The translations under genes and the position numbers were made by a program. From a virus, in the IMG/VR virus record IMGVR_UViG_3300033149_002501, positions 1 through 21,662 of that record: a stretch of DNA of 21,662 bases. One strand, 5' to 3'. Below, one piece after another: positions 1 through 10,850 of this stretch. Numbering within the stretch: the first letter of the stretch is position 1; each line of letters starts with the position of its first letter. The notes under the pieces are model-generated. The model was not told the DNA's origin. It saw only the letters and a program-made list of their open reading frames with translations, and did not search any database.

Positions 1-95
1 GCATGAACAAAACCATCTAATTGGTGCAAAATTGGATATGCTCCGGCGTGACCGTCGGCGACTCTTAAAATTAGTTCTCGTCTTTGTGGTGTCAT
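1..95 (-). CDS. Hypothetical phage protein, cut by the left edge
   Basis: Only the first 31 codons are present. The protein begins MTPQRRELILRVADGHAGAY and runs off the window while still open. The ATG lies 64 bases after the endolysin stop, in the same direction, so it is probably the next gene of the lysis operon. No Shine-Dalgarno is visible: the bases before the ATG read GTTTCACT. The intergenic space is filled by three abutting hairpins described separately. I do not recognise a named family; it looks like a small phage hypothetical. Confidence 0.6.
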   Translation of the reverse strand, partial: MTPQRRELILRVADGHAGAYPILHQLDGFVH

Positions 96-110
96 AGTGA
101 AACAATATAG

Positions 111-168
111 GAAACACGGAGGTTTCGCAAAGGATTTGCTAGGCCACGGAGGGCCTTAATTATTTTTT
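111..168. other. Three contiguous GGA-loop stem-loops with a T-rich tail (possible small RNA or leader)
   Basis: Read on the plus strand, three perfect 5-bp hairpins abut: GAAAC-ACGGAG-GTTTC (111-126), GCAAA-GGA-TTTGC (127-139) and, after one T, AGGCC-ACGGAG-GGCCT (141-156). They are followed by TAATTATTTTTT (157-168). The stems differ while the two hexaloops are identical. On the minus strand the same bases lie between the endolysin stop and the next ATG, with loops CTCCGT, TCC, CTCCGT. Known CsrA/Rsm decoy RNAs carry ANGGA in hairpin loops, which the plus strand matches. The T-rich tail also fits a plus-strand terminator. I see no convincing plus-strand promoter (weak candidate CATAGT at 93-98), so the strand and function are open. 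Confidence 0.4.
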
Positions 169-693
169 AATGGTTCTAAATTGATGAAAATATATTGATG
201 TTCCTTTTTTTGGATACCATTGAAAAGAGACGGTATTCCCCTGATTTCCACCAAGCACGAGGATTCGTTTCTCGTCTTGTGCCACATAAAAACCCACGTG
301 TCCTCTCCAGCTTGAACCCAATCTCCTGAAAACGACGATGTCTCCGACTTTTGGATCATTTGTTTGCTCTCCCCATTTGGCCCAACTAATTGCGGCCGCT
401 GACTTTGTGTTCTCAAGTTCGCATTGTTCAAAACACCAATTCATAAAAGCAGAACACCAAGATATTTCATCACTCTTTGCTCTGAGATCGCATGATTTAT
501 GGTATTCAATTATTCTAGGGTTGTGGTTTTCACCGGAATATTCTTTGATTCCGACTTCATTAAGAGCAATTTTAAAAGGTTCTGGCAAAGTATCAATCGG
601 AGGCAAGGAAACTTGTTCAATTTCAATTGTGTTTTTCTTAACTTTTAATTTTGTGCGTTTTTCACAAAACTTTTTAAGTAGTTCACAAATCAT
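160..693 (-). CDS. Endolysin, CHAP/NlpC-P60-like cysteine peptidase
   Basis: This 177-aa protein should cut peptidoglycan peptide links at the end of infection. After a short basic N-terminal stretch (1-35), the peptidase domain spans about 38-172. It has WCSAF (Cys80), GDIVVF (117-122), HVGFY (His132) and GGNQ (148-151, Asn150), the Cys/His/Asn arrangement of CHAP-type lysins, and the SGENHNP and SWAKWG signatures of the TIGR02594-type lysin family. No cleavable signal peptide is seen, so access to the wall should depend on a holin. Its ATG shares the A of the preceding gene's TAA, implying translational coupling. Small membrane proteins and a lipoprotein upstream support a lysis cassette. 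Family assignment is firm; the bond cut is not determined. Confidence 0.85.
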   Translation of the reverse strand: MICELLKKFCEKRTKLKVKKNTIEIEQVSLPPIDTLPEPFKIALNEVGIKEYSGENHNPRIIEYHKSCDLRAKSDEISWCSAFMNWCFEQCELENTKSAAAISWAKWGEQTNDPKVGDIVVFRRLGSSWRGHVGFYVAQDEKRILVLGGNQGNTVSFQWYPKKGTSIYFHQFRTIKK

Positions 694-854: not shown

Positions 855-1213
855 TATCTTTTTCTCCTCGGTTTAGTTCTTGATTTTTGTCTCATGAAAT
901 ATATTTCATCGAAAAAATAAAGGTATTCATCCGACCATGTTGTCGGTGAAAATGAAATTTTATTTGAACAATATTTAAGAGGTTCGTCATACGAGTCGGA
1001 AACTCTCCCGATAAACTCTTCGCTCACCTGGTATTCGTGACAACGGCACTTGCCTTTATAAATTCCAGGTTCAATCTCTTTGATAAAAGGAACACAACGC
1101 TCGTGATTTGTTATCGTTGGGAGAGTTATGTCAGTTCCTTTGCAAGAACTAAGGCATATTAGAACGGCGAATTTTATTGCATATTTTACAATTTCGATAC
1201 TTAGAATTGACAT
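854..1213 (-). CDS. Small lipoprotein of the lysis region (candidate outer-membrane spanin)
   Basis: This 119-aa protein starts with a hydrophobic signal segment (about 8-22) ending in a lipobox, Leu21-Ser-Ser-Cys24, so it is likely exported and lipidated. The mature part has four more cysteines (40, 56, 58, 82), including a CRCHEY motif, and ends in a basic tail (KPRRKR). Lipoproteins in lysis regions of phages infecting Gram-negative hosts are often o-spanins such as Rz1, but the Cys-rich mature domain is larger than a typical Rz1 and no clear inner-membrane partner is adjacent. The ribosome site GAGGGAG lies about 9-10 bases before the ATG. The first 65 bases overlap the end of the HNH gene, as if that gene had been inserted next to this start. 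Confidence 0.7.
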   Translation of the reverse strand: MSILSIEIVKYAIKFAVLICLSSCKGTDITLPTITNHERCVPFIKEIEPGIYKGKCRCHEYQVSEEFIGRVSDSYDEPLKYCSNKISFSPTTWSDEYLYFFDEIYFMRQKSRTKPRRKR

Positions 1214-1562
1214 AAATATTATCTCCCTCTAAAAGATGTCCTCGTTTGCAATGGGTTTGTTTTTGCTTAGGGAATCTTTTTCTTTTTATCGCATCTTGCA
1301 TATTATCTTTTTGTGAACCCTCTCTTAGGTGATCCGGATTGACACAACTAGGATTATCGCAAGAATGTAAAATAGATTTTTTCGGCCATTTCCCATTTTT
1401 TAAAAAGAATGAAATTCTATGTGATCTTTCCATCCTTTTATTGAACGAAAGATAAAAACCGCCGTAACCTCTTTTATCTTTGTAGCCTTTCCAAATCCAA
1501 CAATTTTTTGTTTTATCAACTTTTTCCCAAAACTCTTTAATTCTTTTTTCATTAATTATCAT
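1149..1562 (-). CDS. HNH endonuclease (free-standing homing-type)
   Basis: This 137-aa protein matches the HNH_3-like homing nucleases found scattered in phage genomes. It has CWIWKG (about 21-26), an SHRISF segment (His of HNH), then LHSCDNPSCVNPDHLREG with paired cysteines and the Asn/His of the nuclease core, and a C-terminal Cys/His set (HCKRGH and CKIC) likely to bind zinc. It would nick or cut DNA at a specific site and spread its own gene. There is no Shine-Dalgarno before the ATG; a promoter-like stretch and an 8-bp palindrome lie just upstream. Its 3' end overlaps the lipoprotein start, and it sits among otherwise unrelated lysis genes, all consistent with insertion. Confidence 0.88.
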   Translation of the reverse strand: MIINEKRIKEFWEKVDKTKNCWIWKGYKDKRGYGGFYLSFNKRMERSHRISFFLKNGKWPKKSILHSCDNPSCVNPDHLREGSQKDNMQDAIKRKRFPKQKQTHCKRGHLLEGDNIYVNSKYRNCKICNKIRRSNMP

Positions 1563-10304: not shown

Positions 10305-10345
10305 TAGTTTACTATTTTTTTCTTTTTCTTGCTTGAATTTTATTC

Positions 10346-10351
10346 TATGAT
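10346..10351 (+). promoter_or_regulatory. Possible -10 element for the plus-strand cassette
   Basis: TATGAT lies 7 bases before the ATG at 10359, which would make the nuclease mRNA leaderless. No good -35 is seen at 16-18 bases upstream, where the sequence is T-rich. Some promoter is needed here because the cassette opposes all neighbours. Evidence is only the hexamer and the absence of a ribosome site. Confidence 0.3.
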
Positions 10352-10358
10352 AGTTCGT

Positions 10359-10850
10359 ATGACAAACCTAAACACGAAAACAAAATGGTTGTATTACTTA
10401 GTTGATCCAATAACTAAAAAAGTTATGTACGTCGGTATATCCCGTGATCCAATCAAGAGGCTTGAGGGACACAAGGTTCAAAAAGATAATAAAACAAAAT
10501 ATAATTGGATTAAAAAACTCAAAAAAGAGGGTTTGTCCCCCGAACTCAGATTTGTTGTTGAGGCCGAGGATTCAAAAGCTAAAGCCTTAGAGTCTCAACA
10601 TATAAGAAAATTTGGAATAGAGAATCTTTTAAACAAAAGAGCTGAGGATTTATCAACAAGACTTGAAATGAGGCTTGATAAAAACGAGCTTTTAGAGATA
10701 ACAAAAAGAGCTAAAATGTTCACCAATGGGAATGTCTCCGAGTATTTGAGGTCTGTTATTGCCGAGATAAACGAAGCAAATCCGAGTGAGATAATGAGAA
10801 TAGTTGAGGCCGGACAAGCTAGGTGTCGTAAAAGGAGACGTAAAAAATGA
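10359..10850 (+). CDS. GIY-YIG endonuclease
   Basis: This nuclease-like protein is 163 aa from ATG 10359 (173 from a TTG at 10329; another ATG lies at 10347). The N-terminal 90 residues form a GIY-YIG domain: WLYYLVDP, then VMYVGISRDPIKRLEGHK with the motif's second half and the catalytic-type Arg, and the Glu of KALESQHIRKFG. The rest is helical and highly basic at the end (RCRKRRRKK), suited to DNA binding. No ribosome site precedes any candidate start. It opens a three-gene plus-strand cassette set into the minus-strand tail operon, typical of a mobile or moron-type insertion. It may be a free-standing homing nuclease. Start uncertain, domain clear. Confidence 0.8.
   Translation: MTNLNTKTKWLYYLVDPITKKVMYVGISRDPIKRLEGHKVQKDNKTKYNWIKKLKKEGLSPELRFVVEAEDSKAKALESQHIRKFGIENLLNKRAEDLSTRLEMRLDKNELLEITKRAKMFTNGNVSEYLRSVIAEINEANPSEIMRIVEAGQARCRKRRRKK

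Follow-up and report, generated by a model that had tools for sequence, protein, structure and literature searches.

The window, by which we mean the whole stretch of DNA analysed, is a viral contig record in its entirety (21,662 bp), in which the terminase, portal, capsid, tail and lysin-like genes lay nearly all on the minus strand. A hairpin element was flanked by two minus-strand genes, a CHAP lysin-like gene on one side and the start of a small gene on the other (Table 1). The small gene encoded about 90 aa in related phages, with 61% identity over the window's 31 residues in both G004 and G003, and its homologues in G003, G004, G006 and G011 indicate that it is real. Neither the window copy nor the copies at L051:1501-1773 and L050:1501-1773 matched Pfam or PHROG at E ≤ 0.001. 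The lysin-like gene was 66% identical to its G004 counterpart. Because the contig stops at base 1, the early operon is not visible in the window itself. An HNH endonuclease gene (1149-1562, minus strand), possibly a homing-type insert, lay in the late operon close to the lysin-like gene. A GIY-YIG nuclease ORF (10329-10850, plus strand) stood on the opposite strand amid the tail genes and was followed by small plus-strand ORFs, the whole possibly representing a mobile insert. Megablast of the first 12 kb of the window against named phages gave no match.

Table 1. Features of the hairpin element and of the genes that flank it
Feature	Position	Strand	Description
Small conserved gene, 5' part	3..95	-	Truncated at the contig end; final late gene in relatives
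Hairpin 1	111..126	+	Stem GAAAC/GTTTC, hexaloop ACGGAG (CANGGANG type)
Hairpin 2	127..139	+	Stem GCAAA/TTTGC, loop GGA; sub-optimal Csr/Rsm site
Hairpin 3	141..156	+	Stem AGGCC/GGCCT, hexaloop ACGGAG; doubles as terminator-like stem
T-rich tail TAATTATTTTTT	157..168	+	Follows hairpin 3; possible intrinsic-terminator tract
CHAP-domain lysin-like gene	160..693	-	Pfam CHAP, E 3.9e-10; precedes the element on the late strand

The original prediction described three perfect, abutting 5-bp hairpins with GGA in every plus-strand loop. Sequence and fold agreed on all three hairpins, and the loops were read directly from the sequence; the only base separating hairpins 2 and 3 was T140. RNAfold applied to positions 100-175 returned exactly these three hairpins on each strand, and in the minimum-energy fold of the window's plus strand another pairing took the place of hairpin 2. 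The folding-energy z-scores for 100-175 were unremarkable (-1.6 on the plus strand and -2.2 on the minus strand), so that the case rests on the arrangement of the hairpins. We found that the element was the sole abutting triple among the 263 perfect hairpins of the whole window (stem of at least 5, loop of 3-8). When the window was shuffled 60 times with dinucleotides preserved, an abutting triple arose in one shuffle, and GGA or TCC in all three loops in none. The sequence CACGGAGG occurred twice in the window, both times within the element, and reached at least two copies in 5 of 100 shuffles. Hairpins with a C-G-closed ANGGAN hexaloop and a stem of at least 5 were expected 0.045 times per window, and 400 Markov sequences contained no pair of C-G-closed ANGGAN hairpins within 60 nt; all of these rarity figures flatter the element, since the pattern was picked after being seen. 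Strict ANGGAN hairpins were rare in phage DNA (7 per 604 kb, stem of at least 4), and phages showed no general enrichment for them, with 7 counted versus 3-8 for permuted loops.

Judged from sequence comparison, conservation in two related phages is stronger evidence than rarity. A search by capsid identified G004 (91% identical) and G003 (70% identical), and in both of them the element was kept directly before the same small last late gene, the gene preceding the element in G003 being one other than the lysin. On the GGA strand, G004 carried CAAAC/GTTTG around the loop ACGGACT, GCAAA/TTTGC around GGA, and AGGCC/GGCCT around AGGGAC, its hairpins 1 and 2 sharing bases at their join. G003 carried ATC/GAT around ACGGAT and GGGCC/GGCCT around AGGGAG, its second hairpin being weak. 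All 13 bases of hairpin 2 were the same in G004, and this hairpin was missing from G003. The stems had drifted, with one compensatory pair in hairpin 1 (G-C in the window to C-G in G004), and A-GGA was constant, the loops ACGGAG, AGGGAC, AGGGAG, ACGGAC(U) and ACGGAU differing only at the N and X positions of ANGGAX. Approximately four loop changes thus all fell at two of the six positions, for which a post hoc estimate gave a chance of about 0.01 under random placement. Whether the stems vary while the loops stay had been named as a check on the original prediction, and the kept A-GGA and the one compensatory stem pair spoke for it, across only three lineages. A further contig, L061, reproduced the G003 region over 6.3 kb with a single difference and, being near-identical, adds no independent lineage. 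The more distant homologues of the small gene in G006 and G011 had no such element beside them, a search for further relatives anchored on the nuclease gene yielded no new copy of the junction, and the exact array sequence was absent from viral contigs.

The high-affinity target of Csr/Rsm proteins is an ANGGAX hexaloop seated directly on a stem, and N and X are looped out in published Rsm-RNA structures (PMC4005645). Hairpins 1 and 3 match this form exactly, as do most of the G004 and G003 hairpins. Decoy RNAs of the CsrB/CsrC and RsmX/Y/Z type resemble the element in presenting several loop GGAs (three of three hairpins here), in placing ANGGAX on C-G-closed stems and in having a terminator-like end. 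The element, however, is far shorter, offers two strong sites and one weak one, is phage-borne, and, instead of a stand-alone gene, appears to be the 3' end of an early operon. Rfam models of decoy RNAs gave no match at E up to 10 in positions 1-400 nor at the gathering score in the window, and Rfam searches of the relatives and of the other arrays returned nothing relevant. The nearest named relative is the TwoAYGGAY motif (RF01731), with the reverse complement of Bacillaceae-1 (RF01690), which shares adjacent hairpins with A-GGA loops; TwoAYGGAY is predicted to bind CsrA (PMC4333381). The ACGGAG loops of the window nevertheless end in G and not in Y, arrangement and context differ as well, and the TwoAYGGAY covariance model found no match in positions 1-400 of the window at E up to 10. 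A precedent for sequestration of RsmA by a 3'-UTR-derived RNA is RsmU of Xanthomonas, although RsmU is chromosomal and unrelated in sequence, and its binding is independent of its predicted GGA motifs (PMC7694677). The loop type is also that of CsrA-repressed mRNA leaders such as hcnA, whereas no plus-strand gene start lies just downstream of the element in the window. The G003 core UCACGGAUGA resembles the hcnA site. We rejected a plus-strand cis-leader under CsrA control in the window, because only a 4-codon ORF (at 169) follows the element on that strand, in a region antisense to the lysin-like gene.

A scan for terminators detected the GGCC hairpin with its T-rich tract on the GGA strand in the window, G004 and G003. 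The T-rich end had been proposed as a possible terminator, and this part was borne out to the extent of a terminator-like site shared by all three phages; the tract is an interrupted one and follows a stem of only 5 bp. In G003 the outermost pair of the GGCC hairpin was G.U on the GGA strand and A.C on the other. Early replication genes ran toward the element on the GGA strand in both G004 and G003. Those of G004 comprised methylase, helicase and exonuclease (by Pfam) and a nuclease-like ORF, and its last early gene overlapped the tail of the small late gene. Since the early genes converge on the element and, in G004, overlap the late tail, an early terminator is expected beyond them, and the element is a candidate. 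No clear plus-strand promoter-like site was listed just upstream in the window, where only about 100 bases are available. The position at the expected end of the early operon in two relatives makes a 3'-UTR or terminator-proximal element likelier than a stand-alone RNA, and the suggestion of a separately transcribed RNA was not supported in the form given. What endured of the proposed plus-strand CsrA/Rsm decoy were the ANGGAX loops, the kept A-GGA and the terminator-like T tract.

The reading that we prefer, with a probability of about 0.5, is that the element is a putative CsrA/Rsm-binding hairpin array that ends the early transcript, the last hairpin also acting as terminator and the array having a small sponge or protective function. 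The early (replication) transcript would run toward the late operon, pass antisense through the small last late gene and end at hairpin 3 and the T tract, so that the element would form its 3' end on the plus strand. There, high-affinity ANGGAX loops would be displayed by hairpins 1 and 3, at a spacing of about 30 nt, and a weaker GGA by hairpin 2. Early in infection of a host that would carry CsrA, the accumulating 3' end might bind CsrA dimers, either titrating them, as a small sponge would, or shielding the transcript, and hairpin 3 would in addition halt early transcription before the late operon. For a sponge, two or three sites is a small number, and the element is present in only three phages. 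A search by capsid in genome contigs identified no host; named-phage matches to the capsid and helicase were too distant for host assignment, and a tail gene had none. No phage-encoded CsrA was found in the window, G003, G004 or the record of L061.

Metabolism and motility are under CsrA/Rsm control, as are several CRISPR-Cas systems in Serratia (PMC8450108), and phages carrying csrA are known (PMC7366521). The literature that we searched contained no description of a phage RNA titrating CsrA. If our reading is true, the phage may soak up or exploit this bacterial regulator, and an array of CsrA-binding hairpins borne by a phage would give it a compact, directly testable tool of host takeover.

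The best surviving alternative, which we nonetheless regard as unlikely, is that the locus is only a terminator region between opposed operons, in which hairpin 3 and the T tract stop early transcription, the other hairpins stabilise the RNA and the likeness to CsrA targets is coincidental. That all three phages have a terminator-like site, each time on the GGA strand, fits this explanation, and so do the converging early and late operons, whose tails overlap in G004. One hairpin suffices for termination, however, and three are present; termination does not call for GGA in every loop, nor for changes confined to N and X, and the interrupted T tract and the stem of only 5 bp tell against it.

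We consider it quite unlikely that the element works on the minus strand, as a structured leader of the small last late gene or as its promoter region, the NUCCNU loops serving as a repressor or ribosome-related site. The element does lie directly before the small gene in all three phages, even though the preceding gene differs in G003, and the folding-energy z-scores in the window (-1.97 on the plus versus -3.07 on the minus strand) do not favour the plus strand. The small gene is without a Shine-Dalgarno sequence in the window and in G004 and has a TATATT box 8 nt before its ATG, promoter-like in G004, so that a leaderless start is possible. In G003, by contrast, an ordinary AAGGA site is present for this gene. 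Both the G.U pair and the T tract fit the GGA strand, the fixed and free letters of the loops fit a known GGA-binding protein, and for NUCCNU hairpins no known binder emerged. Least probable is recognition by another RNA- or DNA-binding protein, such as one of the phage's own, or a DNA-level role as replication or recombination site: for several phage genes nearby no function is known, but the three arms differ in sequence around a common loop, which argues against a DNA operator, and the loops correspond to a bacterial RNA-binding target that is well characterised.

Beyond the close relatives of the window, a DNA pattern derived from the three phages matched 86 viral stretches. With G003, its twin and G004 left out, and with the pattern's own first hairpins kept out of the background, hairpins whose stem had at least 3 pairs were formed at 19 of 77 nearby CACGGA sites compared with 15 of 403 other CACGGA sites at the same loci (binomial p about 4e-11, a value inflated by related contigs), and with a stem of at least 4 the counts were 7 of 77 and 7 of 403 (p 4e-4). 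Permuted-loop counts at these loci were zero, which is an unfair control because the loci were selected by the GGA pattern, and some of the arrays found fell inside predicted ORFs whose calls are uncertain. The wider set suggests a class missed by current Rfam models. A bolder reading, which we hold only tentatively and think less probable than not, is that the early operon ends in a terminator built of CsrA-target hairpins, making a sponge that would reprogram host translation, and that arrays of this kind, whether sponges or leaders controlled by CsrA, turn up repeatedly in unrelated phages.

At L069:7519-7558, two GGA hairpins stood directly before a same-strand ORF, the second overlapping the likely ribosome-binding site; by analogy, this may be a phage form of the leader that CsrA controls by repression. 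A pair of CACGGA hairpins at L067:1863-1892 lay antisense between two collinear ORFs, in the same orientation as in the window. In GC-rich phages, arrays of two to three hairpins with ACGGAT or ATGGAT loops were observed at L070:657-703 and, similarly, in L096, L079 and L141; the hairpins of L070 adjoined a terminator-like hairpin and preceded a possible gene start.
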